64,000 nucleotides of DNA from positions 186,001 through 250,000 of the forward strand of contig NZ_JALGQH010000002.1 of assembly GCF_022810305.1 (NCBI RefSeq). Direction: 5' to 3'. Position numbers and translations under genes: made by a program. Every line of letters starts with the position of its first letter. Positions within the stretch are counted from its first letter, which is position 1. The notes under the pieces were generated by a model. That model had not been told where the DNA came from, ran no database searches, and saw only the letters and a program-made list of their open reading frames with translations. Source of the DNA: Rhodococcus sp. ARC_M6 (lineage in GTDB: Bacteria; Actinomycetota; Actinomycetes; Mycobacteriales; Mycobacteriaceae). Shown here in pieces: positions 34,626-59,461 of the stretch.

Positions 34626-34650
34626 GGTTTGACGCAAAGGAACAGGGGTA
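34626..34650 (+). promoter_or_regulatory. SigF/SigB-type promoter for the alcohol dehydrogenase
   Basis: GGTTT (34626-34630), 15 bases, GGGTA (34646-34650) followed by G matches the general-stress sigma consensus of actinobacteria. It lies about 105 bases before the GTG of the alcohol dehydrogenase gene. Confidence 0.6.
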
Positions 34651-34755
34651 GCCGATTCGCAAGGCGGCACACACGTCGCCCCCACGAGACTGATTTCGAT
34701 TCGGGCGGTCATTGTCGAACAAGCTCCGATCGGACCATAGGTAAGGAGCACGGGC

Positions 34756-35934
34756 GTGAGAGCAGTGACCTGGCAGGGAAAAAGACATGTCAGTGTCGAT
34801 ACCGTTCCGGATCCGGAGATCCGCGTGCCGACCGATGCGATCGTCGAACTTACTACGACCAATATCTGCGGATCCGACCTCCACCTCTACGAAGTGCTCG
34901 GCGCGTTCATGAACGCCGGGGACATACTCGGGCACGAGCCGATGGGCGTTGTGCGTGAGGTGGGCGACGCGGTCAACGGACTGCACGAAGGCGACCGAGT
35001 GGTCATCCCATTTCAGATTGCCTGCGGCAGGTGCTACATGTGTCACGCCGGTCTGCCGACGCAGTGCGAGACCACCCAGGTTCGAGATAAGGGTTCCGGC
35101 GCAGCACTGTTCGGATACTCCGCGCTCTACGGTCAGGTGCCAGGGGCGCAGGCTCAGTACCTGCGGGTACCGCACGCCCAGTACACCCACATCAAGGTTC
35201 CCGACGGTCCCCCCGACTCCCGTTTCGTCTATCTGTCCGACGTACTACCGACCGCATGGCAGGGCGTCGAGTACGCCTCCATTCCTGCCGGCGGCTCGGT
35301 GGCTGTGCTGGGGCTGGGGCCGATCGGCGACATGGCGGCACGTATCGCCTCGCACCGGGGAGCCAGGGTGATCGCTATCGATCTGGTGCCCGAGCGACTC
35401 GAGCGTGCGCGTGCCCGCGGAATCGAGGTGCTCGATTCGAGCCAGGTGGACAATCTCGGTGACGCAGTGCGAGAGATCACCGACGGTCGGGGTCCCGATT
35501 CGGTGATCGACGCCGTGGGGATGGAGGCACACGGCTCGCCCGGTGCCCGGCTGGTTCAGCAGGCCACGTCGCTGCTTCCCGATCGGATCGCCGGGCCACT
35601 GATGACCCATGCCGGTATTGACCGTCTCCAGGCTCTGCATTCGGCTATCGACATCGTCCGACGCGGCGGCACCATCTCTCTGCTCGGCGTTTACGGAGGG
35701 ATGACAGATCCACTACCTATGCTCACCCTGTTCGACAAGCAAATCCAACTGCGCATGGGACAGGCAAATGTGAAGCGGTGGGCGGACGACATCATGCCAC
35801 TTCTGACCGACGACGACCCACTCGGTGTCGACTCCTTCGCCACCCATGAGCTACCACTCGAAAGTGCCCCCCAGGCGTACGAAATCTTTCAAAAGAAGCA
35901 GGACGGTGCCATCAAAATCCTACTGAAACCGTAA
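34756..35934 (+). CDS. Zinc-dependent alcohol dehydrogenase (formaldehyde-dehydrogenase-like)
   Basis: A 392-residue MDR-family enzyme. The catalytic zinc ligands lie in NICGSDLHLYE and ILGHEPMGVV, and the structural zinc loop has its four Cys in ACGRCYMCHAGLPTQC. NAD binding is shown by VLGLGPIGDMAARIA, and an Asp after it (VIAIDLV) favours NAD. The long insertion before the C-terminal part is typical of the glutathione-independent formaldehyde dehydrogenase-like group. The GTG start has AAGGAG 9 bases upstream. It has the stress-type promoter at 34626-34650. Confidence 0.9.
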   Translation: MRAVTWQGKRHVSVDTVPDPEIRVPTDAIVELTTTNICGSDLHLYEVLGAFMNAGDILGHEPMGVVREVGDAVNGLHEGDRVVIPFQIACGRCYMCHAGLPTQCETTQVRDKGSGAALFGYSALYGQVPGAQAQYLRVPHAQYTHIKVPDGPPDSRFVYLSDVLPTAWQGVEYASIPAGGSVAVLGLGPIGDMAARIASHRGARVIAIDLVPERLERARARGIEVLDSSQVDNLGDAVREITDGRGPDSVIDAVGMEAHGSPGARLVQQATSLLPDRIAGPLMTHAGIDRLQALHSAIDIVRRGGTISLLGVYGGMTDPLPMLTLFDKQIQLRMGQANVKRWADDIMPLLTDDDPLGVDSFATHELPLESAPQAYEIFQKKQDGAIKILLKP

Positions 35935-35949
35935 CTCCCAGGACGGTAT

Positions 35950-36147
35950 TCATGTTTTCGCTGCGATCCTCCCCGTCGCCGCCACCCGCTCCTTGTAGGC
36001 CTGAATCCTGCCTGCTGCGGTCGAGACCAGGATCGGGCGCGCACCCGCGTTGACCACCGCCCGCCACGGCTCGGTCAGCTCGACCTGCTCGACACCCTCC
36101 GACGCGACCAGAGATGCGATCGTCTTGTCTCGAAGCTCCGTTTCGAC
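35950..36147 (-). pseudogene. DJ-1/PfpI family protein, N-terminal remnant
   Basis: The frame reads ELRDKTIASLVASEGVEQVELTEPWRAVVNAGARPILVSTAAGRIQAY, which is the start of a PfpI-type stress protein. It then diverges and stops after 65 codons, whereas the family has about 180. At the expected start there is GTC after a good GGGAGG, so even the start codon seems lost. The promoter at 36189-36213 is still intact. Confidence 0.7.
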
Positions 36148-36188
36148 TGCGCCCTCCCATCACTTCCCGGCGCGTCCTACAAATCCGC

Positions 36189-36213
36189 CTACCCGGAATA
36201 CGCCGGGGTAACC
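36189..36213 (-). promoter_or_regulatory. SigF/SigB-type promoter before the PfpI remnant
   Basis: On the minus strand GGTT (36213-36210), 15 bases, GGGTAG (36194-36189). Spacing and sequence equal those at 42934-42958, 44215-44239, 47591-47615 and 59437-59461. It points at the PfpI remnant about 40 bases downstream. Confidence 0.6.
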
Positions 36214-36596: not shown

Positions 36597-36639
36597 CCAG
36601 TGCGGGAAATGCGGAGTATGAACAACTTTCGCCAGGTCC

Positions 36640-36955
36640 ATGTATCTTGTCCGTGCGCGTCACGGACAATAGCCAACGCAGCATTTTCCCGAGGTAACAC
36701 ATCGCCGCGCGCGACGACAATCTCATTCTCTTCGGCAGCTTCGAGACAGGGTCCATGCCCAGCGCGATATTGAAGCGCGATACTGGAGGTTGTCGGTCTC
36801 ATGGACCGTTTACACCGTGCACGCCACGGTTTCCGGGTTCCTTCGCCATCGACTACCGAAACTCCGGCCATGGCGGCATCACATCGAGTTGCGCTCGTCG
36901 GCAGCTTCGTCGAAACCTTCGCGCCTATGTGGGGCCCCCTGTCTGGGCATTTCAC
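36640..36955 (-). pseudogene. GAF(-ANTAR) regulator remnant
   Basis: The minus strand contains ATRCDAAMAGVSVVDGEGTR and then, after frame changes, LQYRAGHGPCLEAAEENEIVVARGD. Together these are the GAF domain of the GAF-ANTAR regulators common in Rhodococcus. Between them ETVACTV and TDNLQYRA sit in another frame, and a short duplication of TATCGCGCT is visible. No ANTAR domain follows. The gene is therefore broken by at least two indels. Confidence 0.6.
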
Positions 36956-37070
36956 AACTGCAAAGGTTTTCCTACACTGGAAGAGTCGCGGTTAGACGCC
37001 CTGAACCCCGGACGTCGATCGTGAAGCCTCCGTCGAGTCACCCCGGCCCGATGGAGGCGCCCTGTACGGG

Positions 37071-37474
37071 CCCCGATCATCTTCCTCGGGTGTGGGGCTC
37101 GTCGGCCGCGGGTAGATGACGGTCAAACGTTCTCGACAGCAGTGCTGTGGACGAGTTGACTGGTGCTGGAGGCGTGACCAATCAAGAGCGGTCAGACTCA
37201 CCACGTTTGTCTCTCACCGCACTGCCGCCCGCTTCGGCACATTCTTCCGAAGTAGTGCGGGCGGCCGCACCGAGGGATCACAGAGAACAGGACATGGTCA
37301 TGAGCATGGGAAAGAAAATCCAGCACAAGGTCGAAACCGCGGAAGGCGCCGCCAAGAAGGCTTTCGGCAAGGCCACCGGGAACGCCCACCTCGAAGCAGA
37401 GGGAAGCCAGGAACAGGCCAAGGGCAACGCCAAACAAATGGGCGACAAGCTCAAGGACGCTGGAAAGAAGATCA
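37071..37474 (+). repeat. Long dispersed direct repeat, copy A (leader plus csbD)
   Basis: The sequence from CCCCGATCAT at 37071 through most of the csbD gene is repeated at 59893-60340. Conserved blocks include CTCGTCGGCCGCGGGTAGAT, CGGTCAAACGTTCTCGACAG and GACTGGTGCTGGAGGCG. About 230 bases of non-coding leader are conserved in addition to coding sequence, which suggests a regulatory leader. Copy B carries an extra block of about 100 bases. Confidence 0.75.
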
Positions 37475-37494
37475 AGAACGCTTTCAAACACTGA
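37300..37494 (+). CDS. CsbD family stress-response protein
   Basis: A 64-residue, highly charged CsbD protein (MSMGKKIQHKVETAEGAAKK, FGKATGNAHLEAEG, KQMGDKLKDAGKKIKNAFKH). CsbD proteins are small and largely unfolded, and are induced by general-stress sigma factors in Bacillus and by nutrient stress in actinobacteria. An ATG two codons upstream (37294) is equally possible. It is the only fully conventional plus-strand copy in the island. Confidence 0.88.
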   Translation: MSMGKKIQHKVETAEGAAKKAFGKATGNAHLEAEGSQEQAKGNAKQMGDKLKDAGKKIKNAFKH

Positions 37495-37534
37495 TCATTG
37501 TTCGGTGAGTCCGACCGAAACTCTGTGAAACCGG

Positions 37535-37864
37535 CTATTCGTTCGCCAGCAGCGGCCCCAGCGGTCCGAGGTCGATGTTCAGGTCCTCGGGCGTGAGATC
37601 GAAATGATCACGCAGCTCCGCCATTCGCTCCTCGAGCAGCATCAGCGTCGTGCCGATGCGTTCGATCTGCTCATCGCTGAGGTCCCCGTGCTCGACTCGG
37701 CGTAGCGCCTGCCGCTCCATCAACTGGCGTAGGAGCTCGACGATGGTGAGGACCAGTGCGACCAGCCCCTTCTCGACGGACTCTGGGTCGGCATCGATCC
37801 GTTGAGGCAGAACCCGCCGACCGACGTCGGTCGGCGCATCCGACTCGGGCTCGGGCTCAGTCAT
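37535..37864 (-). CDS. gvpK: Gas vesicle protein GvpK
   Basis: A 109-residue GvpK. RIDADPESVEKGLVALVLTIVELLRQLMERQALRRVEHGDLSDEQIERIGTTLMLLEERM is the family core. GvpK is a minor protein needed for vesicle assembly. It is the last gene of the minus-strand gas-vesicle operon, starting 8 bases inside the gvpS gene. Confidence 0.94.
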   Translation of the reverse strand: MTEPEPESDAPTDVGRRVLPQRIDADPESVEKGLVALVLTIVELLRQLMERQALRRVEHGDLSDEQIERIGTTLMLLEERMAELRDHFDLTPEDLNIDLGPLGPLLANE

Positions 37865-38066
37865 CGCTAGGCTCCTGACCGGCCGGGTCTGGGACGAGTG
37901 CGCTGACCGATGCGATGAGCGTGCGCAACGAGATTCGGACCATGTCGACGTCGGCGAGCGACAGAGTGATCTCACCGGTGATGACGACACCACCACCGAG
38001 CACTCGATCGAGCAGGTCGACGAGAGCGATGCGGCGCGTGTCGTCCGAAGGAACCATCTCGCTCAT
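37857..38066 (-). CDS. gvpS: Gas vesicle protein GvpS (GvpA/J-like)
   Basis: A 69-residue GvpA-fold protein (IALVDLLDRVLGGGVVITGEITLSLADVDMVRISLRTLIASVSAL). The LLDRVLGGGVV...DVDMVRI pattern separates it from the main GvpA and fits GvpS of actinobacterial clusters, placed between gvpL and gvpK as in Streptomyces. It probably caps or nucleates the vesicle wall. Confidence 0.85.
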   Translation of the reverse strand: MSEMVPSDDTRRIALVDLLDRVLGGGVVITGEITLSLADVDMVRISLRTLIASVSALVPDPAGQEPSDD

Positions 38067-38070
38067 GGGC

Positions 38071-38850
38071 TCACTCGTCGATCCCGGCGAAGGAGTACGG
38101 CGGCCACGGTCCGGTCAGTTCCAGTGCGACGCCTGGGCGCTCGTCGTCGAGGGCCGCGACGAGCGCGGCGAAGTCGTCGACCCGCTCGGAGTCCACCAGG
38201 TAGGTGCCGTTGAAGATCATCCAGGCACGCTTGCCAGTGAGCACCGGATCGGTGACCTGTCGCCGGCGCCCGCCGACAGCATTCCCCAAGAGCGCCGAGT
38301 GAATCTCCTCCGCATGGCTCGCCGCCCTGCGTTCGACGTCTTGCTGCGCGCTCAACTCCGCACGACGGCGCAGTAGATACGCGGTCCCCTTTCCCCCCGC
38401 ACCGGTCGGGGAAGGTTCCGCTTTCGCGTTCTGAGCCAAGGTCTTCGAGTCTGCGTACGCTTTCACGCCCCACTCGCTCCGTCCGGTCACCCTCCGCAAC
38501 GTTGCCCTGAACTCCTCCCGTCGTTCGTCGAGGAGTAGACGAACCCGGTCGTCGTCGAGGTAGACAGTGGCCAATCGCAGTGGAACGGTGGGACCGCAGC
38601 GCACCATGGCGGCCACCACAGCGTCGTGTGCCCTCGCGGTCGTGGCCAGCCAGTCGAGGTCCTCGAGGTTGTGCTGCAGCGGTGCCTGCCCGAATTCGCT
38701 CAGGCTCACCGTCCCCACCACCGCGACGAGACCCGCCGACGCCACGGCCCGGACCGGCTCCCCGGCCACCCCAGAGACCCCGGCGAGTTGTGCGTCGCCG
38801 ATGCTGTCGGTCGTGATGCCGTAAAGCCAGACACCGTCATCCGCGGTCAT
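38071..38850 (-). CDS. gvpL: Gas vesicle protein GvpL/GvpF family
   Basis: A 259-residue GvpF/L protein from the ATG at 38848-38850 (VWLYGITTDSIGDAQLAGVSGV...VASAGLVAVVGTVSL; VPLRLATVYLDDDRVRLLLDER; WGVKAYAD). GvpF/L proteins bind GvpA and guide its assembly. It overlaps the gvpJ gene by 14 bases and lies next to gvpS. Confidence 0.92.
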   Translation of the reverse strand: MTADDGVWLYGITTDSIGDAQLAGVSGVAGEPVRAVASAGLVAVVGTVSLSEFGQAPLQHNLEDLDWLATTARAHDAVVAAMVRCGPTVPLRLATVYLDDDRVRLLLDERREEFRATLRRVTGRSEWGVKAYADSKTLAQNAKAEPSPTGAGGKGTAYLLRRRAELSAQQDVERRAASHAEEIHSALLGNAVGGRRRQVTDPVLTGKRAWMIFNGTYLVDSERVDDFAALVAALDDERPGVALELTGPWPPYSFAGIDE

Positions 38851-39244
38851 CGCCAGGCTCCTGCCGCTTCGCCTCCACCTCGATCGTTTCGGCGGCCTCG
38901 ATGGCAGAATGCACCGACCTGTCGGACTCGAGTTCGGCGATCCGCTCCCGCAGCTTCCGATTCTCGAGTTCGACGTCACTGTTCCTGCCGGTCAGCCAAG
39001 GGTCATGCTCCCACCAATCGATGCCCACCTCCTTCGCGGTCTCCAGCGAGGCGATCACCAGTCGCACCTTGATGGTCAGCAGTTCGATGTCGAGCAGGTT
39101 GACTTGGATGTCCCCGGCGATCACGAGTCCCTTGTCGAGCACCCGCTCGAGGATCTCGCCGAGGTTCGTCGACTGGTGCCCGCCACCCAGTCCGCCGCCC
39201 GAGCTCTGCGGAAGGTTGCTCGCACCGCCACCGGCGATGGTCAT
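38837..39244 (-). CDS. gvpJ: Gas vesicle protein GvpJ
   Basis: A 135-residue protein with a GvpA-type core (LGEILERVLDKGLVIAGDIQVNLLDIELLTIKVRLVIASLETAKEVGIDWWE) and a C-terminal coiled-coil extension rich in Glu/Arg. The IKVRLVIASLETAKEVGIDWW end is characteristic of GvpJ. It is coupled with gvpO by a 4-base overlap. Confidence 0.9.
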   Translation of the reverse strand: MTIAGGGASNLPQSSGGGLGGGHQSTNLGEILERVLDKGLVIAGDIQVNLLDIELLTIKVRLVIASLETAKEVGIDWWEHDPWLTGRNSDVELENRKLRERIAELESDRSVHSAIEAAETIEVEAKRQEPGDDRG

Positions 39245-39531
39245 GACAGCCCGCTCCCACTGTCACCGACACCCCGTACGTAGCGGCGAGTTCTGCGGTA
39301 GGACAACAGTTCTCCATCCAGATCCAACACCACCTCGTACAGTGCGAGCATGTCTGTCGACGACGGGATTCGCCGATCCTCGACTACCTCCACCTCCACC
39401 GTCCAGCCGTCGTCGGTCGGCATGACCGACGTCGCGCCCAACGGTTTCTTGCCGGTCAACTGTGCGATGTCACGCGTTGCTATCTCGGCGATCTCGGGTG
39501 CCGGCAACGGTGGCTCCTGTTCTGCCATCAC
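39241..39531 (-). CDS. gvpO: Gas vesicle protein GvpO
   Basis: A 96-residue GvpO (AEIATRDIAQLTGKKPLGATSVMPTDDGWTVEVEVVEDRRIPSSTDMLALYEVVLDLDGELLSYRRTRRYVRG). The final Y-RT-RYVRG is the family signature. It is an essential assembly protein in halophilic and actinobacterial clusters. Confidence 0.93.
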   Translation of the reverse strand: MMAEQEPPLPAPEIAEIATRDIAQLTGKKPLGATSVMPTDDGWTVEVEVVEDRRIPSSTDMLALYEVVLDLDGELLSYRRTRRYVRGVGDSGSGLS

Positions 39532-39534
39532 CGA

Positions 39535-39786
39535 TCACTCCTTCTCCGGAGTGGTGGTCTGCCCCGTCCCGGTCATTCGGTCGAGGATCGCCTGCTGAGC
39601 CTGCTCTTCCTCTTCGGCGGAGATCTCGCCCGTCGCGCGGGCGTCCTCCAACTCCTCGAGAGCGCGGCGCGCACTCGCGGGATTGTGGAGTTCGTCTTCG
39701 ACCTGTCGCTGAATCAACTCGGCCAGCGATATCACCCCACGAACGGGAGCGAGTGGCAAGGTGGCGATGAACGACAGCAGACCCAT
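39535..39786 (-). CDS. gvpG: Gas vesicle protein GvpG
   Basis: An 83-residue GvpG (LPLAPVRGVISLAELIQRQVEDELHNPASARRALEELEDARATGEISAEEEEQAQQAILDRM), a small helical coiled-coil protein that cooperates with GvpF/L. Only 3 bases separate it from gvpF. Confidence 0.92.
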   Translation of the reverse strand: MGLLSFIATLPLAPVRGVISLAELIQRQVEDELHNPASARRALEELEDARATGEISAEEEEQAQQAILDRMTGTGQTTTPEKE

Positions 39787-39789
39787 CGG

Positions 39790-40581
39790 TCAGCCCTCCG
39801 GCTTCTGGGTCACCACGAAGTCGTAGGCGGCGAGAGGTCCGAGCAGGCGCATGTCGACCCGGCCGTCCCACTGCTCGGCCAGTTCCCCCACCGCCTTCTC
39901 GAGTTCTTCCTGCCGGGCCACCTCGACGAGAACGGCCACTTGCGCGGCCTCTTCCTCGTGAGTCGGTTCCCGTACGTTGACCGAATCGGACAGCGAGTCG
40001 AGTGCCTCGAGCACCTTGCGGGTGTCGGCGTCCCGCTTGGCGACGATGGCGTTGCTTACGATCTCGCCGAGCGCCATCCGGGCATCGCGGGTACTTTCCT
40101 CGGGCTGATCGCGGATCGCGCCGAGCAATTGGGCGGCTTGTTCGCTCTCGTCGATCACTTCACGAAGGATTGCCTGCTCGACGTACCGTCCCTTGACGAC
40201 GTATTGGGCTCGACCTTCGAGTTCCTGCAGCGCCGCGGCGAACTCGTCGGCGTGTGCTGCGAGCAATTCCTTCTCGACAGACTCTTCATCGGTCATGACC
40301 GCACCGAAACGAAGTGGGAGTACGGGTGCCACACGAGATGTGCCGTCCAGTAGGTATGCATGGGCTTGCAGGTCCTCGGGTTTCCCGAGCGGTCTTTCCA
40401 CCGAGATTTCGCTCACGAGTGCTGCGATGCCGCCGTGCTTGACGATGGTGACCGGGCCGTCACACACGCCGACCGCATCCTCTTCGGCTTCCATGTCCGC
40501 GGGCACGATGCCGTACACGTAGACACCGCTGGTGCGCGGTTCCTCGGGTGAATCGGTGCTCTGGTCTGACGTAGACATCAT
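39790..40581 (-). CDS. gvpF: Gas vesicle protein GvpF
   Basis: A 263-residue GvpF/L protein ([82 protein letters not shown]). GvpF keeps GvpA soluble and delivers it to the growing vesicle. It is coupled with gvpA by a 4-base overlap. Confidence 0.93.
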
Positions 40582-40988
40582 TGGTCCCCTCGAGTGGACT
40601 TTCGCGAAACCCGTTCGCGCTCAGGATCTTCCTGCCCTCCTCCGAGAATGTCGCCGAGTTTCTCACCAGCGGCCTCGAGCGCGCCCTTGGTTTTCGATTT
40701 GGCGCCGCCCTCGGTGACAGATCCGACCAGATCCGTCAGACCCTGCGGCTCACCACTGCCGACCTCGAGTCGGTTCGCGGCCTCCGCAAAACGCAGGTAG
40801 GTGTCGACGCTGGCGACGACGACGCGTGCGTCGATGGTCAACAGTTCGATGCCGACCAGGGAGACGCGTACATAGGCGTCGATTACCAGGCCCTTGTCGA
40901 GGATGGTGTCGATGACGTCGGCGAGGCTACTGGAACTGGGGCCGCCACTGACTCCGCCGCCTCCGCCCGCCGGTTGTATCGCCGTCAT
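40578..40988 (-). CDS. gvpA: Major gas vesicle structural protein GvpA, extended form
   Basis: The GvpA core ([53 protein letters not shown]) is highly conserved and should form the ribbed vesicle wall. A 60-residue Gly/Lys/Glu-rich C-terminal extension and a Gly-rich N-terminus make it 136 residues, about twice the canonical GvpA, as known for actinobacterial forms. It is the third gene of the operon. Confidence 0.93.
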
Positions 40989-42124
40989 CGCTTTGCGCCC
41001 TGTCTGGAGCTGGCGGCCGCACTCTTACTCGATCGGCCACGCCGTTTCGGGGGTGCCGAGTTCTCATCGGCGGCTGCGGTCTTACGCGGAGGTCCGCGGC
41101 GTTTCGGCGGCGACGGGGCCTCCCCCTCGTCATCATCGTCATCATCGGCCGGCCCAGCCTCGTCCTCCGCGGTTTCCTCCGACTCCTCGTCGGCCTCGTC
41201 GGCCTCGTCGGCCTCTTCGAGTTCATCGGCCTCTTCGAGTTCGTCGGCCTCCTCGGGTTCGACCACCTCGCCGTCCCGGATCTCCCCACGCCAGCCCTCC
41301 ACCTCGTCGGGATGGAGAACAGCCTGCGTCATGAGATGGCGTCCAAAGTGCTTCAACTCCAGACGAACTCGTCGCCCCGGAGCACGCCACAGGTTTCCCG
41401 TCTTCTCGAAAAGGCCCTTCGGGTGATACTCGAGTATCAAAATGATTCGAGTGAGATCGGGAGTCACCTCGTGGAACGTCACCGCGCCGTCGATAAAACC
41501 TTTGGCACCCTTCGAGCTCCACACGATCCGCTCATCGGGAACCTGCTCGATGATCGACGATTCCCAGGTTCGGTGCGACAGAAAGACCTGCGCCTTCCAC
41601 TCGAGTTTCTCCTCCGATTCCTGCTCGACCCGCTCGACCTTCTTCATGAAGGAAGGAAAATCGGCGAACTGAGTCCATTGGTTGTAGACCAACTGGACCG
41701 GGGCGCCCACATCGATTGATTCGACGATATTGGTCAACTTGAGCTTCTTGCCCTTGCCGCCGCCCTTGCTCCCACCACCGGTGACAGCCTCCTTGACGTC
41801 GGAAGCCTTGTCCTTGACCATCTGCTTGGCACCCTCCCAGCCTCCGCTCACCGCAGATTTGATCGGTGACTCACCCTCTGTCTGCTTCTCGGACTTTTTC
41901 TCGGAACCGGTAACAGCCGAAATCAGTCCTCCACCGCCGCCCTCGGCGTAGTCGGCGAGCCTGCCCGATGCGTTCTGCACCTTGTCCGAGACCGACGAGA
42001 GTGCCTTGTCGGCCACCGTGCCGACCAGCCTCTGCACTGCACCCTGCAACACACCCGACGATCCCTGCCCGTCGCCCGATATGGATTCTCCTTGCTTGTT
42101 CGCGGCGTTCGTCATCGCTATCAC
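40985..42124 (-). CDS. SRPBCC domain protein of the gas-vesicle operon
   Basis: A 379-residue protein. Residues 1-130 are low-complexity with helical segments. The centre is an SRPBCC (cyclase/dehydrase) domain ([70 protein letters not shown]). The last 100 residues are an acidic repeat tail ([23 protein letters not shown]) followed by a Lys/Arg-rich end. The GTG at 42124 overlaps the upstream stop. An ATG at 42115 is the alternative start. Role in vesicle formation unknown. Confidence 0.82.
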
Positions 42125-42807
42125 CGTCCTCCTCGCCGGACGGGCGCAGAATCAGTCGTCGCCTTGGCCCGTGTCCGGCGACCGCGCGACGGAGCTTCTT
42201 CGTCATCCTCGTCAGATTTCGCGGGCCGCGACCTGCTGGTCGCCCCCGAGCTGTTGCCCGGTGTCCGCCGGCGCGCAGCGGGCCGCTTACGTGGCGCCGG
42301 TTCCTCGTCAGCGGCTTCTTCCTCGTCGGGCTCCTCGTACTCGTCTTCCTCGCCGTCGTCCGGCTCGTCCGGCTCTTCGTCGACTTCGGATTCGTCGTAC
42401 TCGTCGTTCTGAGACCGACCGCGGCGCTTAGCACCGAGTTTTCCGACCTTGCTCAGCTTGCCTACCGTGTCGCCGATCCCGTCCACGGTGCCGTCCACGG
42501 TGTCGACGACTGCTCCACCGCCTGAGAGGAGTCGGTTGTTGAGCGAATCAATGCGCCGACTTGCGGCGGTAACCGCTGCGGCCTTCGCCGCGCTGACGAG
42601 CTCTTCCCGAACCGAGTCGCTGAACTTGGCGAACTCGGGGGAACCCGCGAGCATCTTGGTGCCGCGTTCGAGTAAGTTACGCGGCCCCCCGGGGAAGCGT
42701 CCGGTCGCCCCCGCACCGGCGAGCATCAGCGCCATCTTCATTCTGCGTGTGCGGCCCAGCACGTATCCCGCGCCGACGGCCAACGCCACCTGACCTTTGG
42801 TTTTCAT
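42121..42807 (-). CDS. Gas-vesicle operon leader protein with acidic tail
   Basis: A 228-residue protein. The N-terminal 35 residues (KTKGQVALAVGAGYVLGRTRRMKMALMLAGAGATG) form a short hydrophobic YtxH-like segment. A helical region follows, then a highly charged tail (DEYDESEVDEEPDEPDDGEEDEYEEPDEE) and a basic end. Equivalent proteins head actinobacterial gas-vesicle clusters and are sometimes misnamed DNA primase. It is the first gene after the stress-type promoter at 42934-42958, with AAGGGG 9 bases before the ATG. Confidence 0.75.
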   Translation of the reverse strand: MKTKGQVALAVGAGYVLGRTRRMKMALMLAGAGATGRFPGGPRNLLERGTKMLAGSPEFAKFSDSVREELVSAAKAAAVTAASRRIDSLNNRLLSGGGAVVDTVDGTVDGIGDTVGKLSKVGKLGAKRRGRSQNDEYDESEVDEEPDEPDDGEEDEYEEPDEEEAADEEPAPRKRPAARRRTPGNSSGATSRSRPAKSDEDDEEAPSRGRRTRAKATTDSAPVRRGGR

Positions 42808-42933
42808 CGTCGAACCCCTTTTGCCGAGTAGTCACAGGCGCGTCTCGTGCCAACGTCGCGGCATTGTGTCGCAGGTCCATGCTCGGGAATGTGTTCGCAA
42901 AACCGTGCGCGGTAAGGGAGGCGCCATTTTCGA

Positions 42934-42958
42934 CTACCCACTCACAGCACACTCAACC
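42934..42958 (-). promoter_or_regulatory. SigF/SigB-type promoter of the gas-vesicle operon
   Basis: Minus strand GGTT (42958-42955), 15-base spacer, GGGTAG (42939-42934). It lies about 127 bases before the first gene of the gas-vesicle operon. It is the only such element I found in the 470-base gap. Confidence 0.65.
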
Positions 42959-43275
42959 AGCAGCCGACCCCTCGATTCGGCCAACTCCCGCGCGGCGACG
43001 GTGCGCAGTCGTTACCTGCCCGAAAAGCCTGGCCGGCGGCGATCCGCCAGTTGGCTGCTGTGATCTCCCAACCACGACAATTGTGACTTGTTGTGTCCCG
43101 GAGACGGTGACGGATTCATTTGCTCACCCCGACACAACGCCGGGGTAGCGCATTGGTGTGGAAGGCCCAAACATGTCGATTTTCTTGCTCGGCGCTTCCG
43201 TTGTCGACCGCGCCGAGCATCTAGGTATTTTTACGACAAAGTGTTGCTGCTCAACAACTCTCACTGGTCGTCATG
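42959..43275. other. Intergenic, no gene recognised
   Basis: This stretch lies between the gas-vesicle promoter and the end of the next minus-strand gene. I see no protein-like frame and no tRNA. Confidence 0.4.
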
Positions 43276-44205
43276 TCACTCGGCACCGGACCGCACTGCT
43301 GCGACTACAGCCGCGACGACGAGTGCCAGTAGAAGAACCACGAGTAGTACCGGACCGAGTAGGAGTCCGAGGATCAGGAGCAGTGCGAGGGCGATCTTGG
43401 TCTTTCCGCTCAGTCCGGTCACCAGCGCTTTGATCGCGGCCCACGCAGGATTCTTGCCCGTCAGGATCGCCCGAATGCCTGCGAGGCCGGCTTTCATCCC
43501 CGGGCTGCGTGCGACACCGTCGACGAGCGTATCCATCCCATCCCGGATTTTCTGTTGAATTTTCCTCGTCACCGTCTCACCGCGGTCTCGCACCGCGTCC
43601 AGCTGTCGGCGAACGTAGGTTTTCAACCACTCGATGATCGCCTCAACCGACCGCGCCACTCGGCCGCGAGGAGCCTCCGAAGGCTGCTCGCCTGTGATCT
43701 CCTGTGGAGGCTGGTCTGGTCGACGCGTGCGATTCTGCTCGGTGGATCGGCGGAGTGCGGACGGTTGGGACTTACCTCGGACAGACGTCCGAGCCACTGG
43801 CTTCACAGTGACTTCGGATGACCGCGCACGTCCTGGGGATGCGGCACGGTCGGGGCGCCGCCGGCGGGGCCTGCCCAACGCGGGTTCGGCGGCGGCATCG
43901 GCTCGTGACGGTCGAGGCGCCGAATTCTTCCCGCCTGAAATGCTGCCACGGGACGAGGTTGGGGATGATTTCGGGGCAGCCGGTGGCCTGGGCGGTAGCG
44001 GTCGCCTGCGTGGCAGCCGCCCCGAAGCCCCGACGGAAGCGGCGGTTGACCTTTTCGCTGTCTTCGATGACCGAGCCGCCGCACCGGACGAGTCGCTTAC
44101 CGCCGCGAGGTTGTCACTGTCCGTGGTCCTGCCGTAGGAGAAAGCACGTCCACGCTCCGGCCCGGCCGGTGTGGTCCTCCCGCCCATTCTCCCTCGTGCA
44201 CACAT
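43276..44205 (-). CDS. Basic, low-complexity protein with C-terminal membrane anchor
   Basis: A 309-residue protein. The first 190 residues are Ser/Pro/Arg-rich and probably disordered. Residues about 190-260 are helical (VARSVEAIIEWLKTYVRRQLDAVRDRGETVTRKIQQKIRDGMDTLVDGVA). The C-terminus has a long hydrophobic anchor (TKIALALLLILGLLLGPVLLVVLLLALVVAAVVAAV). No family is recognised. The ATG at 44205 is about 10 bases from the -10 element of the stress-type promoter, so the transcript may be leaderless. Confidence 0.65.
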   Translation of the reverse strand: MCARGRMGGRTTPAGPERGRAFSYGRTTDSDNLAAVSDSSGAAARSSKTAKRSTAASVGASGRLPRRRPLPPRPPAAPKSSPTSSRGSISGGKNSAPRPSRADAAAEPALGRPRRRRPDRAASPGRARSSEVTVKPVARTSVRGKSQPSALRRSTEQNRTRRPDQPPQEITGEQPSEAPRGRVARSVEAIIEWLKTYVRRQLDAVRDRGETVTRKIQQKIRDGMDTLVDGVARSPGMKAGLAGIRAILTGKNPAWAAIKALVTGLSGKTKIALALLLILGLLLGPVLLVVLLLALVVAAVVAAVRSGAE

Positions 44206-44214
44206 ACATCCAAT

Positions 44215-44239
44215 CTACCCACCGGGAAATCTTCAAACC
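44215..44239 (-). promoter_or_regulatory. SigF/SigB-type promoter before the anchored basic protein
   Basis: Minus strand GGTTT with GGTT at 44239-44236, 15-base spacer, GGGTAG (44220-44215). The spacing is the same as at the other island promoters. Confidence 0.6.
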
Positions 44240-44285
44240 AGAGCGGAAGACTTCCCGTTTCACCTGAACGTCGTGGTCGTCCTTC

Positions 44286-44591
44286 TCAATGACCTTCCTG
44301 ATCGAAGAGCGCTTGACCTTCGAGTTCCTTGACACGACGGTGTTCCCTCATAATGACGAGCACTCCAACTACGAAGGACACCACACATACGACCCCAGCG
44401 ATCAACGCCCAGCCCCGAAATCCGTAACCTGCTGCTACCAAGGCCAATCCGAGCGCCACCAACCCAAGTCCGATCAGTAGATATCCGGGAAGGTTGCGAC
44501 CGTCGGTGATCGCTTCACCGGCATGCGACCGAATCGTGCGTTCATCGTCCACGGGAATGCCCCCGTTCTCATCGGTCACCACCCTCTCCAT
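44286..44591 (-). CDS. Small membrane protein (UsfY-like layout)
   Basis: A protein of about 101 residues with RTIRSHAGEAITDGRNLPGYLLIGLGLVALGLALVAAGYGFRGWALIAGVVCVVSFVVGVLVIM, that is a short polar head with an H-A-G-E motif and two membrane helices, then a charged tail. The layout resembles UsfY of the mycobacterial sigF locus, but similarity is weak. The start could be the ATG at 44591 or a GTG at 44579. A weaker stress-type promoter lies upstream (44645-44670). Confidence 0.6.
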   Translation of the reverse strand: MERVVTDENGGIPVDDERTIRSHAGEAITDGRNLPGYLLIGLGLVALGLALVAAGYGFRGWALIAGVVCVVSFVVGVLVIMREHRRVKELEGQALFDQEGH

Positions 44592-44644
44592 CCTGAAATC
44601 ATGACGACGCATGCTTCGCAGCCATCGTCGGCCCATTTCGCAAT

Positions 44645-44670
44645 TACCCGAGCGATGCACCGACGAAAAC
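44645..44670 (-). promoter_or_regulatory. Weaker SigF/SigB-type promoter candidate
   Basis: Minus strand GTTTT (44670-44666), 16 bases, GGGTA (44649-44645). It differs from the others in the first -35 base and in spacing, so confidence is lower. It is placed about 55 bases upstream of the small membrane protein gene. Confidence 0.4.
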
Positions 44671-44790
44671 TGGGCGAGGTGCGCCGCAGCCAGAATTTCG
44701 AGAACACAGTGTGCAACCTAGCGGAAAAGGACGAGAGACCCAGCAAGGTCGTATGCTGAGAATCCGGGGGCTCGAACTGGAGGAAATCCC

Positions 44791-47321: not shown

Positions 47322-47495
47322 TCAGTCCTTGAAGGTGTCCTTGACCTTCTCGCCAGCCTGCTTCAGGTTGCTCTTGGCCTGATCCTTGTTTCCTTCGGCT
47401 TCGGTGTCCTTGTCTCCGGTCGCCTGCCCGACCTTCTCTTTGGCCTTGCCGGCCAACTCTTCGGCCTTGTTCTTCGCCTTGTCGACGGCACCCAT
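47322..47495 (-). CDS. CsbD family protein (57 residues)
   Basis: A short CsbD protein (MGAVDKAKNKAEELAGKAKE, VGQATGDKDTEAEGNKDQAK, SNLKQAGEKVKDTFKD). It is typical of the family, and GGAGAAGGAGAA precedes the ATG. It was easy to miss because of its length. Upstream is a well-matched stress-type promoter (47591-47615). It differs from the 37300 copy and represents another CsbD subtype. Confidence 0.88.
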   Translation of the reverse strand: MGAVDKAKNKAEELAGKAKEKVGQATGDKDTEAEGNKDQAKSNLKQAGEKVKDTFKD

Positions 47496-47590: not shown

Positions 47591-47615
47591 ATACCCGTCC
47601 CGGTGATGTCCAACC
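47591..47615 (-). promoter_or_regulatory. SigF/SigB-type promoter of the minus-strand csbD
   Basis: Minus strand GGTT (47615-47612), 15 bases, GGGTAT (47596-47591). It lies about 95 bases before the csbD start and is among the best matches in the window. Confidence 0.65.
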
Positions 47616-48925: not shown

Positions 48926-49018
48926 CCCGACAACCCCGGGTCCACCTGATCGGGTAGTCGCGATGCCGGGGACCCACTCCACTTCAGGCTCTGTCGATTC
49001 ACCAACTAGGAATTCGTC

Positions 49019-49174
49019 ATGATCATCCTCGGAATTATTCTCGCTGTCGCCGGATGGCTACTCTCGATCCCCGTGCTGCTGTATCTCGGGGTCATCCTGC
49101 TCGTCATCGGTATCGTGCTGATGGTCGCGGGCTCGGCGGGCCATGCAGTCGGTGGCCGACGCCACTACTACTGA
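49019..49174 (+). CDS. DUF6131-like 51-residue membrane protein
   Basis: A very short protein (MIILGIILAVAGWLLSIPVLL..GVILLVIGIVLMVAGSAGHAVGG then RRHYY). The two helices with the ending GxxVGGRRHYY match small actinobacterial membrane proteins annotated as DUF6131. AGGA precedes the ATG at the right distance. Function unknown. It lies just before the desaturase gene. Confidence 0.75.
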   Translation: MIILGIILAVAGWLLSIPVLLYLGVILLVIGIVLMVAGSAGHAVGGRRHYY

Positions 49175-49239
49175 CCGCCGTCCCGTCCCCACGCCACAGA
49201 GCCCACGGGTTCTCGGTCTCGGACAACTGGTGAACCCTC

Positions 49240-50478: not shown

Positions 50479-51334
50479 ACCCAACTCGTCTACGACATCG
50501 TCGGACGGTGATCACTCAGCGTCATACGACAACTTGACCTCGGCGGCGGGCCGGATAGCCCAGAACAGTATCTTCGAAAGATTCGCCCGAGCAGGCTTCG
50601 TCACCAGCGGAATCGTCCACCTGATCATCGGCTACATCGCCATCCGGGTTGCCCTGGGCGGCGCTGCTGGTGCCACCGACCAATCCGGCGCGATGGCGGA
50701 ACTAGCCAGCAAGCCTGGCGGAAAGATCGCACTGTGGGTAGGTGTTGTCGCATTCCTGGTGATGGCACTGTGGCGCCTCGCCGAAGCTGCGCTCGGAAAG
50801 TCGTCTGAACCGGGGTCCGACAGCGCACCATCCGAAGTGATCAACCGCATCAAGGCCTTTGCTTTGAGTGTGGTCTACTTCGCCTTCGCATTCACCGCGT
50901 TCGGGTTCGCCCGGGGCAGCGGAAAATCCAGTGGCGCCCAGAGTTCGGGCCTGAGCGCCCGCCTCATGCAAAGTACCGCGGGAACCGTCGCGCTGATCGT
51001 CGTCGGCCTGATCGTCATCGCGGTCGGCGGTTACCACGTCTACAAGGGAGCCAGCCGGAACTTCGTCAAGGACCTCAAGGGTGAACCCAGCGACCTAGTA
51101 CGACGACTGGGCATTGTGGGTTACATCGCGAAGGGCCTGGCCATCGCGGCGATCGGTTTACTGTTCATCCTCGCGGCCGCCCAATCAGCGCCGAGCAAAG
51201 CCACCGGACTCGACGGCGCCTTCAAGACACTGTTAGCCCAGCCGTACGGCGCGACACTCCTTGTCTTGGCGGGCCTGGGGATCATCACCTACGGTCTGTA
51301 CTGCTTCGCGATGGCCCGATACGTCAAGATGTAG
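50471..51334 (+). CDS. DUF1206 membrane protein
   Basis: A 287-residue protein from the ATG at 50471. It has three DUF1206 repeats, each with two helices (ERFARAGFVTSGIVHLIIGYIAIRVALGG; VINRIKAFALSVVYFAFAFTAFGFARG; LVRRLGIVGYIAKGLAIAAIGLLFILAAAQS). These proteins are common in Rhodococcus and Mycobacterium. No mechanism is known. It is translationally coupled with the desaturase. Confidence 0.92.
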   Translation: MAEPNSSTTSSDGDHSASYDNLTSAAGRIAQNSIFERFARAGFVTSGIVHLIIGYIAIRVALGGAAGATDQSGAMAELASKPGGKIALWVGVVAFLVMALWRLAEAALGKSSEPGSDSAPSEVINRIKAFALSVVYFAFAFTAFGFARGSGKSSGAQSSGLSARLMQSTAGTVALIVVGLIVIAVGGYHVYKGASRNFVKDLKGEPSDLVRRLGIVGYIAKGLAIAAIGLLFILAAAQSAPSKATGLDGAFKTLLAQPYGATLLVLAGLGIITYGLYCFAMARYVKM

Positions 51335-51389
51335 TGCCACACCATCGGCTTCGTGATGTCTCGATCGCTTGTGTTACGGGAGATGTTAA

Positions 51390-51681
51390 CCGAAGAAGAG
51401 CGTTGAGGGACTCAATCGCATTGGTGGAGCACAGCACTCGCCGTATCTCGGTGTCGTAATCGAGGAACGGAATGATCCCCCGAGCACTACGTGCAGGGCG
51501 GGACCCCCCATCCTGCCAGGCATTCGTCCACAGCCGGATGATCGCCCGGTACCTCTCACCCCAACGCTCAGCGAGGTCGTCGAACGCTACTCGAGGAGGT
51601 CGTCTCGGTCGGGGCGGTATAGATCGACTTGAGATCGTGCTTGAGCCCGCCCCAGTGCCGACGCGACGACAACCGAAAGGT
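51390..51681 (-). pseudogene. IS256-family transposase, 3' exon fragment
   Basis: The minus strand directly after the group II intron reads TFRLSSRRHWGGLKHDLKSIYTAPT, then after a 1-base frame change VAFDDLAERWGERY and IIPFLDYDTEIRRVLCSTNAIESLNA. These are C-terminal parts of an IS256 (Mutator-type) transposase. Both the frame change and an odd insertion (QDGGSRPARSARG) show decay. The last residues and the terminal inverted repeat are missing. Confidence 0.8.
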
Positions 51682-51744
51682 GTGGGGTCGACCCGAGACG
51701 CGGTATCGGGATTACTCCCGGTCCGTTTCCTCGGGCCGCCCGCC

Positions 51745-51778
51745 GAACCCGGCGTGCGATTCTCACCGCACCGGGCTC
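51745..51778 (-). ncRNA. Group II intron domain V
   Basis: The minus strand reads GAGCCCGGTGCGGTGAGAA followed by TCGCACGCCGGGTTC. That is a 34-nt hairpin with GAGCC at one end and GGTTC at the other, the hallmark of domain V, the catalytic heart of the intron. The maturase reading frame ends at 51763, so its last codons run into domain V, which is unusual. Confidence 0.85.
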
Positions 51779-53257
51779 TCCGCAAATGCTGTCGGTCCTG
51801 CCTTCTGGGCATGGATCAGCCACGGGTTGGGGATACGCGCCCCGCGGTATCGGTAGCGTTTGATTGTCACCGTCGCGGGTTGAAATAACGTGATCCCGCC
51901 CGCTTCCGGCCACCATCGACCGGAGCCGTAATAGTGGCGAATGATCCAGTACGCCTTCCGGTTCGGATGTTTCTTGCGTAGCCAACGCCAGACCCGCCAC
52001 CACAGGTGGTGGTTGAGCAGGCCGAACGCACGGGCCGACGCGCCGTGCCGGAAATAGAACGCCCAGCCGCGAGTGATCTGTCCCAAAAGTCGGAACATAT
52101 CTTTTGCGGGCAAGCTGGTGGTCTGTCTACCGGTCGCTGTCGTGACCTTACGCCGAATGGTGTTCATCGATTTCTTCGACGGGTAGGTGTAGATCAGTTT
52201 CCGGTCGCTTCCCCTCTGTCGGTGCCGCTGGATGCGGAAACCGAGAAAATCGAAGCCCTCGTCGATCCCGACCACTTGCGTCTTTTCGGGCGCCAGACGG
52301 AGCCCGACCGCCGCAAGCACGGTCTCGATCTCGCCGTAAAGATCCTCGGCTTGCTGCCGGGTGCCGAACACCATGACCACGAAATCGTCTGCATAGCGGA
52401 CGATTCGGTAGGTCGCGGCGCCTCGGCGGGTGGCACGCCAGCGTTGGGTCTGGTTGCCCATGGCCCGCCACCTCTCCCGGAAGTGCTCATCGAGGACCGA
52501 CAGAGCGAGGTTGGCCAGCAGCGGGGACAAAATCCCACCCTGGGGAGTGCCGGTGGTGGTGTCGCGGACCTCGTTCAGCTCGTCCAACAGTCCCGCTTTC
52601 AGAAACGCCTTGACCAACAGCAGGATTCGTCGGTCAGACACACGAAGCCGCAACCGGTCCATCAGGGCCGGGTGCGAAATTTCGTCGAAACATGCCGCGA
52701 TATCGCCCTCGAAGACCTGCTCGTAGCCGCGTGCGGCATAGAACCGGATTTCCTCGATGGCGTCCTGACATCGACGTTCCGGGCGGAACCCATAACTGGA
52801 CGGGTCGAAATCGGCCTCCAGAATCGGCTCCAACACCAGCTTCAACGACGCCTGCACGACGCGGTCACGAAGAGTGGGGATGCCCAGGCGACGACGTTCG
52901 CCGTTCGCCTTGGGAATCGACACCGTCCGCACCGGTACCGGACGAAACAAGCGGTCCTTCAACGAGGTCCGCAGTTTCGGTCAGGAAACCGGCCACGCCG
53001 CGCTCGCTGTTCTCGACCGACCACGCGGTGGCCCCGTCGATCCCAGCCGTCTTGGCGCCCTTGTTCTCCCGGACCCGCGTCCACGCCATGACGAGGAACC
53101 CTGGGTCCACCACGAGATTAAACAGATCATCGAAACAACGACCAGGATCGGCCGCCGCCCAACTGTGCAGTTTGGTCTGAATCCCCAGTACCCGCTGGCG
53201 CACCGTGTATGGACGTTCCAGCAGTGCACCGATATTCACCGGCGCCTCTTCCGGCAT
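51763..53257 (-). pseudogene. ltrA: Group II intron reverse transcriptase/maturase, frameshifted
   Basis: The N-terminal part (MPEEAPVNIGALLERPYTVRQ, VRENKGAKTAGIDGATAW) and the main part (RFRPVPV-like RLFRPVPVRTVSIPKANGERRRLG; YGFRPERRCQDAIEEI; catalytic YADD in IVRYADDFVV; domain X RGWAFYFRHGASARAF) form one maturase. They lie in two frames. An extra base in the GAAAC run at about 52974-52978 separates FLTE from LRTSLKDRLFRP. Without it the protein would be about 495 residues. No HNH endonuclease domain is seen at the C-terminus. Confidence 0.85.
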
Positions 53258-56832: not shown

Positions 56833-56896
56833 GGCCGCGACGAGACCTATGCTTTCACATCGCTGTACCAGGGGGTGCTCGAGAATTCCTTGCTCC

Positions 56897-57343
56897 TCAC
56901 TGTTCGATTGACAGTTTCTGGTATCGATTCAACCAAAGCGAACTTTGTCCCCTGTAAACAGGCAGATCACGCGCCCCACGCCGGTTGCGTCGTAGATCGC
57001 AGTGACCACGGCCGCGACTGCCCAGAGTAAGCGCATAGAGGTCGCCGCTGCAGGCAAGCTCTCCGAAGCCCTTGAGACTGTCGAACGTGCACGTGGACGC
57101 CCGTACGACTTTCACCAATTGATCGGGCGTGCCGACCTGATGCTCGACGAAGCGGTCCAGAAGCCACGTGAAGCCGGCCGTCACGATCTCGCGGAGAAGG
57201 TAGAGACCGAACTGGTCGGCCGAAACGTCTTTCCCGGACAATGGACGTTCCAGGTAGTCGAGGATTTCGACGACCACTTTTAGTCCGCGTTTCGCGAGTG
57301 TGAAGTGATCGTGCGCAGCGAGCTTTGTGGTGGGCGCCGTCAT
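56897..57343 (-). CDS. Hypothetical protein
   Basis: A 148-residue frame from the ATG at 57341-57343 (TKLAAHDHFTLAKRGLKVVVEILDYLERPLSG, FGLYLLREIVTAGFTWLLDRFVEHQVGTPDQLVKVVRAS). The first 100 residues look like a folded helical protein. The last 40 are Arg-rich and less convincing. I recognise no family. It precedes the FUSC gene in the same direction. Confidence 0.4.
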   Translation of the reverse strand: MTAPTTKLAAHDHFTLAKRGLKVVVEILDYLERPLSGKDVSADQFGLYLLREIVTAGFTWLLDRFVEHQVGTPDQLVKVVRASTCTFDSLKGFGELACSGDLYALTLGSRGRGHCDLRRNRRGARDLPVYRGQSSLWLNRYQKLSIEQ

Positions 57344-57730
57344 GTCTTCGAATCCGAAATGAAGGAAGCTCGGCGAACTCACGGGCACCCTGGGCACGAG
57401 GCACGGCCGTAGCCGCGCTACGTGCGATTTTCGCCGTGTCGGAAGGAAGGCCCTGTCTTTCAGAGTTGCCAAAGTGAGGTACGTGGAAATAGTGAGCGTA
57501 GGGAGACCCCGAGCACTGACTTCGAGCATTTCGATCAGATTGGCACCGTTGTCCAACTGGCCGGTATCGACACCGTCATGGCGCCAACTCCCTGGCGAGA
57601 CGCCGCCGCGCGGCGGCGCCTCGATCCTTGTGCGAGGGTCTCCTCACAAAGCCTCCGCGTCCTTATGCCGCAGGTACTTCAGTGCCTCAATCACCCCGCA
57701 CTCCTGACAGACATCCCATGCTGAATTTGG
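57344..57730. other. No gene recognised
   Basis: This stretch lies between the hypothetical gene and the IS110 element. No frame with recognisable similarity was found. The part next to the IS may be its left end. Confidence 0.35.
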
Positions 57731-59002
57731 TCAAGCAGCCACTGTGGTTGTGGTTCCAGCCGTAGCGGTGGTTCCGGTTCGGTGATGCTGCCACGCGATA
57801 TCCTCGTCGTACGGTGTGCCGGTCTTGAGACAGCCGTGCAGTATGCCCACCAGCCTGTTCGCAAGCTGACGCAACGCTGCGTGGTGGCCGATTCTTCTGC
57901 CGCGTAGCGCGTCGTAGTAGGCCCGGGCACCGGGAGATGCGCGCAGCGCGGAGAAGGCCTGCAGGTGCAGCGCGGCGCCGAGGTGGTGGTTGGTGGCGTA
58001 ACGGGCAAGGACAACGGTCCTCTTGCCCGAGGCCCGCGTGATCGGACTCTGCCCGGAGTAGTTCTTGCGTGCCCGGGCGTCTGCGAATCTTGTGGAATCG
58101 TCCCCGAACTCGCCGAGGACCCGAGAAGCCAGGACCACCCCGAAACCCGGCTGGCTGAGATAAATATCAGCGTCCGGGTGACGGCCAAAATGCTCGGCCA
58201 CCACCGTCTCGAACTGTGCGATCTGCTCGTTGAGGGCGGTGATGATCCTGACCTCTCCGGGAACGATGCGTGCGTAGGCACACTCAAGGGCCGCCGGTTG
58301 CCGCAACGCGGGCGCGCGGAGTACCGCCAGTAGCGTGTTTGCTTTGGCCTCGGCATGGTGGCGGCGGGCAGTCCGCAATGCGGCAATGAGCTGGCTTCGG
58401 GTCAGTTTCGCGGCCAGCACCGGATCCGGTGCCCGGGCAAGTAGCCGCAGTGAATCCACTGCGGCAAGGTCCTCGAATGCGTCGATGGCTGCGGGAAAGA
58501 ACTCGCGCAGAACAGAACTCAGCCGCAGCACATGGCGGGTTCGGTCCCAGATCGCACTTTGGTGCGCGCGTGCCAACAGCTTCACCGCCTCGGCCACGTC
58601 ACTGTCCCCGGCGATCGGACGGTGATGGGCGCGGTCGAGGCGGACGATTTCGGCGAGCACATGCGCATCACCGGCATCGCTCTTGGCGCCGGAGGTGGCG
58701 TGGCGTTGCCGGTAGCGCGCGGACGAGAGTGGGTTGATCGCGAACACCTGGTAGCCGGCTGCTCGCAGCGCCGTTACCCAGGGGCCGCGGTCGGTCTCGA
58801 TTCCGACGACGATCTGCTCGGCGACCTGTTCAGGTGGCAGTTCCACCCAGGTTGTGGGGGCGTGCTCGGCGAGCAGGGTATGTAGCCGTGTGATGCCCTC
58901 CAAACCTTCCGGCACACGTGCCCGCGCCAGTCGGTGCCCCGTTTCGTCTTCGATCTCTATGTCGTGGTGGTCCTGCGCCCAGTCGTCTCCGATGAACAAC
59001 AT
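57731..59002 (-). mobile_element. IS110-family insertion sequence with intact transposase
   Basis: The transposase has 423 residues from the ATG at 59000-59002 (MLFIGDDWAQDHHDIEI with the first Asp of the DEDD site; GIETDRGPWVTALRAAGYQVFAINPLSSARYRQRHATSGAKSDAGDAHVLAEIVR). It continues to the C-terminal Transposase_20 domain (GFGVVLASRVLGEFGDDSTRFADARARKNYSGQSPITRASGK). It appears complete. IS110 elements lack obvious inverted repeats, so the exact ends are not defined here. Confidence 0.9.
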
Positions 59003-59436
59003 CGCATTCGTCCTCCTCCGTGGTCCGTCAGGCAAGATCACAGCTCCCGGAGACCCCCGCACTCTAATGATCAAGTGCTCACGCCGGAGCGGGCACGGCA
59101 TCCCATCAGCGGTCTGGCCACCGGCGTGTCGGTGGGCGCACGGTCTGTCATTAGGCCTCGATGAGGGGCCTGGGAGGGTGAGTGCTGATCCACCGACCGC
59201 TGTGTAGTCGAGCCTTCCACAAGCACCCGACTAATCCCATTAGAGAGGGTGGGCGCCTATGCGAATGGGCGAGATGCACACGAACTCGGACGCAATCCCT
59301 CAATCCGTCACGGACCAGGAAGAAACCACCGCGTTCATCGCCGGAATTCACTGCCACCACGCGCAAAAGGAAACACTGGCACCCTGTTCGGCCGTCGAAC
59401 CGGAACGCGGTTACCGATCACTCGTTTCTGTCTCGC

Positions 59437-59461
59437 GGTTAGCGTTCAGGCTGAGGGGTAT
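59437..59461 (+). promoter_or_regulatory. SigF/SigB-type promoter of the YtxH-like gene
   Basis: GGTT (59437-59440), 15 bases, GGGTAT (59456-59461) followed by TCG. It lies 61 bases upstream of the YtxH-like ATG and is a best-class match. Confidence 0.65.

Follow-up and report, generated by a model that had tools for sequence, protein, structure and literature searches.

A cluster of probable SigF-type promoters around a gas-vesicle operon of Rhodococcus sp. ARC_M6, and recurrence of the promoter before gas-vesicle genes of the genus

Here we report a cluster of probable SigF-type (general-stress) promoters around the gas-vesicle (gvp) operon of Rhodococcus sp. ARC_M6. The window, by which we mean the whole stretch of 64,000 nucleotides analysed, is taken from contig C41 (positions 186001-250000) of a draft genome 6.34 Mb in size, and the promoters lie in an island within it. 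We consider it likely that the island carries a genuine cluster of SigF promoters, which would make the gas-vesicle proteins of this lineage stress products. There is good support for a shared SigF regulon, and the stress response probably includes the gas-vesicle genes.

A sequence-only reading of this DNA had claimed six GGTT-N15/16-GGGTA(G/T) sites upstream of island genes, and all six are exact and each is aimed at its gene. Four are on the reverse strand, before the gvp operon (42934..42958, GGTTGAG-N12-GGGTAG, then TC), a gene for a basic protein (44215..44239, GGTT-N15-GGGTA[GT]), csbD (47591..47615, GGTT-N15-GGGTAT) and a PfpI/DJ-1 remnant (36189..36213, GGTT-N15-GGGTA[GT]). The other two, on the forward strand, precede a zinc-dependent alcohol dehydrogenase (ADH) gene (34626..34651, an exact motif that reads as GGTT-N16 or GTTT-N15) and a ytxH-like gene (59437..59461, GGTT-N15-GGGTAT). 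A weaker site that the same reading had placed at 44645 was also found, as GTTT-N17-GGGTAA at 44644..44670 on the reverse strand, where it stands 47 nucleotides upstream of the ATG of a UsfY-like gene. The six strict sites and the usfY site pair a GGTT or GTTT -35 box with a GGGTA -10 box at a spacing of 15-17, as in a SigF regulon of the mycobacterial type. From the end of GGGTA to the start codon there are 127 nucleotides for gvpY, the first gene of the operon, 10 for the basic protein, 96 for csbD, 61 for ytxH and 105 for ADH; at the PfpI motif about 54 nucleotides lead to the assumed start of the recognisable pfpI frame. A seventh match to the loose pattern, at 24601-24625 (-), lies outside the island and has A as its final base.

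The gas-vesicle operon (37535..42807, -) has nine genes, gvpY-Z-A-F-G-O-J-L-K, the first two under names that we take from Streptomyces; gvpY has no match in Pfam or NCBIfam. Pfam identifies GvpK, GvpL/F (two), two Gas_vesicle proteins, GvpO, GvpG and a polyketide-cyclase/SRPBCC domain, NCBIfam identifies GvpA (162.8 over 151 bits), and between them gvpA, F/L, G, J, K and O of an actinobacterial gas-vesicle cluster are all present as genes. We found 66 matches to gvpY in 14 of 28 genus genomes, with up to 10 in a single genome, some of them being pieces of one gene; named relatives of the window's gvpY include Rhodococcus opacus, R. jostii and R. koreensis. When 30 of the 66 loci were compared, TTG-N14/15-GGGTAGT stood before gvpY, at about -120 to -155, in 29, and it is kept even in copies whose protein identity to the window's gvpY product falls to 33%. 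The -35 box of these 29 promoters is GGTT in 10 and GATT, AATT or GCTT in 19. The same block also emerges from an unanchored alignment, and columns other than the anchors are high (1.8 bits for G two before TTG, 1.6 and 1.3 for the A and G after TTG, and 2.0 for C after GGGTAGT), with most other spacer and flank columns at 0.1-1.2 bits.

A scan of the 28 genus genomes with RTTGAG-N12-14-GGGTAGTC returned 39 matches versus one for the reversed pattern, and 37 of the 39 precede gvp genes. Among 30 matches that were examined, 27 sit 44-124 nucleotides before a gvpY homologue and one before gvpA genes, while those at loci L196 and L202 are unrelated to gvp; the remaining nine, assigned by eye, comprise eight gvpY matches and one with the promoter sequence of a gvpA-type locus. 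In loci L097-L111 a looser motif occurred 46 times forward (some GGTTT sites being double-counted) versus twice reversed. It lay within 200 nucleotides of gvpY in 14 of the 15 loci with that gene (L046 included), near gvpZ in 1 of 15, and near gvpA, F, G, O, J, L or K in none (n 11-15). The same promoter precedes the gvp operon on all three Rhodococcus plasmid regions examined, taken from 11 plasmid records in which GvpF was matched, and each of the three plasmid loci holds a second similar site; in two of them (L233 and L234, of L232-L234) this second site, GATTGAA..GGGTAGTC, lies ahead of an internal gvpJ. Among 15 gvpY-like loci in named genomes the promoter was found in four from Rhodococcus and two from Amycolatopsis, the latter with GTTT-N16-GGGTAG. 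The placing of the gvp genes in a stress regulon, proposed from the window sequence, is supported by 29 of 30 gvpY loci and by the genus-wide scan.

Directly upstream of the operon, in the window as in relatives, is the gene for a basic protein with a C-terminal hydrophobic segment (43276..44205, -), which has no match in Pfam or NCBIfam; scattered matches of 23-36% to this low-complexity protein were disregarded. The gene holds this place in 11 loci of relatives (L097, with no clear orthologue, was left out), and in nine of them (L046, L098-L103, L105 and L107) the promoter is kept as a GGTTT or GTTT box with GGGTA ending 10 nucleotides before the ATG; it has a spacing of 19 in L106 and is absent from L104. 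These assignments were made by hand, which we preferred for the basic protein to the automatic motif counts (3 of 11, and 3 of 10 for a csbD-like gene at 37 kb), where starts had been extrapolated from alignments. A relative of the protein upstream of gvpY in Gordonia (L219) showed no motif. Since GGGTA ends 10 nucleotides before the ATG, the transcript would start at or beside the start codon, and its mRNA is, judging from the sequence, probably leaderless. The UsfY-like gene encodes a small membrane protein (44286..44597, -) that matches NCBIfam NF041247 UsfY with E 1.1e-20 and 74.2 bits, below the curated cut-off of 100 bits; its promoter recurs as GTTT-N16-GGGTAA at the same place in the sister genome G016, the sole comparison made. 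Elsewhere, a degraded partial second copy of window 43521-45850 lies at 7897-8628 of locus L009 (contig C19), and the basic-protein promoter is reproduced in it exactly.

CsbD and YtxH are stress products in the SigB regulon of Bacillus subtilis. The csbD gene with the promoter (47322..47495, -; Pfam CsbD 1.6e-16) was compared over 30 of 63 matching loci, 13 of which have an upstream G[GTA]TT-N14-17-GGGTA, ten of these outside this genome and G016. A second, csbD-like gene (37294..37494, +; CsbD 2.6e-11 on the longer open reading frame) faces the end of the gvp operon; it has no strict motif, and it adjoins gvpK in seven loci and lies near gvp in three more. The ytxH-like gene (59522..59887, +; 121 amino acids) matches YtxH on the longer open reading frame at 2.1e-7 and 31.7 bits, under the cut-off, and the GvpT domain at 0.0033, likewise under the cut-off. 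Twelve of its 19 loci were judged, L090-L096 being excluded as partial or remote: L079 keeps GGTT..GGGTAT and eight further relatives have GTTT-N15-GGGCA at the same place; two GGGTA and eight GGGCA sites were counted among the 12, with none in L085 and L089. For the ADH gene (34756..35934, +; Pfam ADH_N 4.2e-21, ADH_zinc_N 6.3e-18) the evidence from orthologues is mixed. Twenty of 25 loci were tested, drawn from among the matches listed; seven orthologues carry GTTT-N16-GGGCA near -65, one GGTT-N16-GGGTA and one GGTG-N17-GGGTA, while nine others apparently stand behind a small leading gene with upstream CGGGTA boxes, two of them with GATTGAG. Membership of ADH in the SigF-type set is weak on these sequences. 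The PfpI/DJ-1 remnant (35953..36159, -) is an open stretch between two stops with no clear in-frame start codon, and its DJ-1_PfpI match (E=7.3e-4, 19.8 bits) falls below the curated cut-off of 26.6. The proposal that one stress promoter class serves the cargo is supported for gvp, the basic protein, the UsfY-like gene, csbD and ytxH; support is weak for ADH, and PfpI is broken.

How far could chance account for these sites? In the window the loose pattern occurs seven times against 0.54 expected, a number reached by 0 of 100 shuffles. The strict pattern occurs six times in 24.8 kb versus once in the remaining 415,212 bases of contig C41, where the reversed control gives none, and six of its 31 genome-wide matches fall within 0.39% of the genome (binomial 2.4e-9, or ~1e-6 after 510 windows). 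The pattern was itself taken from the island, which makes these p-values look better than they should; comparison with relatives is free of that problem, and we take it as the real test. A number of observations weigh against the SigF-regulon interpretation. Over the whole genome the strict pattern is at chance level (31 versus 27 reversed) and the loose pattern gives 117 versus 95 for its control; 9 of the 15 named gvpY-like loci have no motif (Gordonia, Prescottella, Nocardia, R. triatomae, Saccharopolyspora, Prauserella, Nocardioides and two Streptomyces), and the named-genome loci, of which L217, L218 and L221 are apparently contigs already counted, show nine motif matches versus six reversed. 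Within the genus, locus L027 has gvpY without the motif. The TTG and GGGTAGT columns of the anchored alignment are invariant by construction, and homologous promoters are not independent events. No motif was found at 17 of the 30 csbD loci, the loose scan was positive in 9 of 19 ADH orthologue loci with the reversed control positive in 5 of 20, and the PfpI gene is a short broken remnant. A position weight matrix separated the island from background modestly, with five matches versus 0.96 expected at score 14, one of them antisense within a gene. The gvp site has the top score across the window plus 415 kb, a rank that is partly built in, as relatives' gvp promoters made up most of the training set; given the modest separation and this training, the matrix was dropped as an island discriminator. 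Enrichment of the motif is seen as a concentration of six strict sites in the island, and the condition set for refuting the proposal, that the motif be frequent in unrelated DNA, is half borne out, in that most genome-wide matches to so short a motif are noise. A chance cluster of such a degenerate motif, which would explain those genome-wide counts, does not explain six strict sites versus one in the rest of the contig or the recurrence before orthologues; we reject it for the set as a whole and regard it as highly improbable. For the gvp and basic-protein sites it is very unlikely; it may still hold for the PfpI site and, with less likelihood, for the ADH site.

In the genome from which the window comes, a single sigma factor exceeds the SigB/F/G cut-off (305 bits versus 234); it scores 440.9 over 372 bits against the SigF model NF005514 and adjoins a gene with a weak RsbW match (E 4.6e-6, far below cut-off). 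The next two sigma factors reach 135.5 and 127.5 bits against the same 234, and the sites match the SigF consensus GGWWT-N16-17-GGGTAY in the form in which the published excerpts give it; both points argue against another sigma factor, for example of the principal or extracytoplasmic function type, which we think an unlikely reader. In its favour, two or more SigB/F/G sigma factors pass the cut-off in several relatives, so that the reader of the promoter may vary by strain; at least one is present in each of the 28 genus genomes. SigF itself seems the best candidate. Locus L012 holds GGTG-N17-GGGTAT at 592-618 (+) and GTTG-N17-GGGTAC at 466-440 (-), close to where the rsbW-sigF operon and a divergent anti-anti-sigma-like gene begin, possibly reflecting autoregulation.

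The sequence-only reading further held that the island transfers a ready-made regulon, and this is supported only in part. Long pieces of the block 36876-51399 are 93.9-96.4% identical to G016, two core samples are 94.7-96.5% identical, and the GC content of the region is 0.60-0.63 versus 0.615; neither divergence nor composition sets the region apart from the core, and a recent transfer argued from identity to G016 is unsupported, the block being as divergent as the core. No match to the window was found in 22 kb to the left of the block in G016 or in the last 8 kb fetched to its right, and the block therefore stands in a different neighbourhood there. An alternative that we consider about evenly balanced is that the promoters are real but each is tied to its own gene family, the region being a hot-spot where pre-existing SigF-type genes accrete and the island as a unit nothing special. 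Counting ytxH rows that reach 89 bits, ADH rows that reach 640 bits and csbD rows that have the motif, we find a gvpY match within 25 kb of only 2 of 11 ytxH, 1 of 14 ADH and 1 of 11 motif-bearing csbD genes in other genomes with gvpY; the remaining 9, 13 and 10 are farther away, some on other contigs of draft genomes. Such accretion also fits the core-like divergence from G016 and the Mutator transposase fragment, group II intron reverse transcriptase/maturase and IS110-type transposase that lie between cargo genes in window 51324-52962 and 57731-59101. On the other side, the basic protein, the gvp operon and the csbD-like gene at 37 kb stay together in relatives, the gvp operon with its promoter occurs on plasmids, and the co-location recurs: the distance between ytxH and a gvpY match is 8.6 kb in G005 (C1, 3.60-3.61 Mb) and 13.3 kb in G009 (C5, 457-470 kb), and that between an ADH copy and a gvpY match is 13.6 kb in G006 (C3, 394-407 kb). 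The same kinds of cargo may thus gather repeatedly. What stands of the transfer claim is that promoter and gvp operon form the mobile unit backed by the data, on Rhodococcus plasmids; the other cargo looks accreted. We therefore describe the region as SigF-type genes assembled around a recurring basic-protein/gvp/csbD module, not as one demonstrated transfer unit.

Two further features of the region can be noted. Window 36876-37195 and 59891-60344 both match one csbD-upstream region of G016, indicating a duplicated csbD segment whose right copy (59891-60344) is apparently broken. The gvp leader of relatives contains a tandem 25-nucleotide repeat, TTACCGCGCACGGTTGTGCGACACA-like (L018 1394-1443, units 84% alike), with seemingly one unit fewer in L019; the same search found no tandem repeat in the window leader (42808-42930) or in L022. 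The repeat is a possible regulator site. A structured 5' leader in the gvp mRNA was considered and rejected, as three leaders fold no better than shuffles (z +1.11, -0.30, -0.84).

Under the SigF interpretation, stress would release SigF from an RsbW-type anti-sigma factor, and SigF with RNA polymerase would transcribe the nine-gene gvp operon leftwards from about 42.93 kb, and with it the genes for the basic protein, the UsfY-like protein, CsbD at 47.5 kb and the ytxH-like product. The vesicles or their proteins may protect the cell.

The principle is already known, given the SigB control of gvp reported in Streptomyces coelicolor: in the passages of PMC5733086 and PMC6629963 that bear on it, citing Lee et al., the gvp operon (SCO6499-6508) is described as SigB-dependent and switched on by saline stress. 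Both are actinobacterial gvp operons, with stress-sigma control reported there and predicted here. The present system differs in that the operon opens with gvpY and gvpZ, a gene for a basic protein stands ahead of it under a recurring promoter of its own, the gvp promoter has the core RTTGAG-N12-14-GGGTAGTC, and there are copies on Rhodococcus plasmids. In two other Streptomyces loci (not from S. coelicolor) gvpO leads, and no such site was found in the 300 nucleotides upstream. The SigF regulon of Mycobacterium smegmatis resembles the window in its boxes, which PMC4694148, in the part drawn on, gives as GTTT/GGTT-N14-19-GGGTA with GGGCA variants listed; UsfY proteins are shared too, the UsfY gene MSMEG_1777 with GTTT-N16-GGGTA being described as a marker of SigF activity, and several dehydrogenases are sigF-dependent there. 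The main text of that paper mentions neither CsbD nor alcohol dehydrogenase (0 occurrences each). The SigB regulon of B. subtilis, with a promoter excerpted as GTTTAA-N12-14-GGGWAW, is alike in promoter and in its CsbD/YtxH class, but it belongs to a different phylum. For a Rhodococcus strain exposed to benzo[a]pyrene plus arsenite, the portion of PMC13118703 consulted places gas vesicle formation among the enriched Gene Ontology terms; excerpts of PMC2631018, PMC8346170 and PMC7693655 were also drawn on. Among the titles and abstracts listed from the open-access literature there was no report of SigF control of Rhodococcus gvp genes, nor of a Rhodococcus-wide plasmid-borne gvp promoter or of the coupling to UsfY and the basic protein.

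The retention of gas-vesicle genes by soil actinomycetes calls for an explanation. Tentatively, and with somewhat less than even confidence, we suggest that the gvp operons of Rhodococcus have come to form a stress module under SigF. They would have multiplied, spread on plasmids together with an unchanging RTTGAG-N12-14-GGGTAGTC promoter, and become linked to CsbD and to a basic protein with a leaderless mRNA, and they would serve stress survival, not flotation. The recurrence of a SigF-type promoter before nearly every Rhodococcus gvp operon examined, on plasmids as well, suggests a role in general stress. The basic protein, encoded just upstream under a promoter of its own, is a candidate gvp partner. 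The question of why these genes are retained thereby becomes testable with the deletion of one sigma factor.

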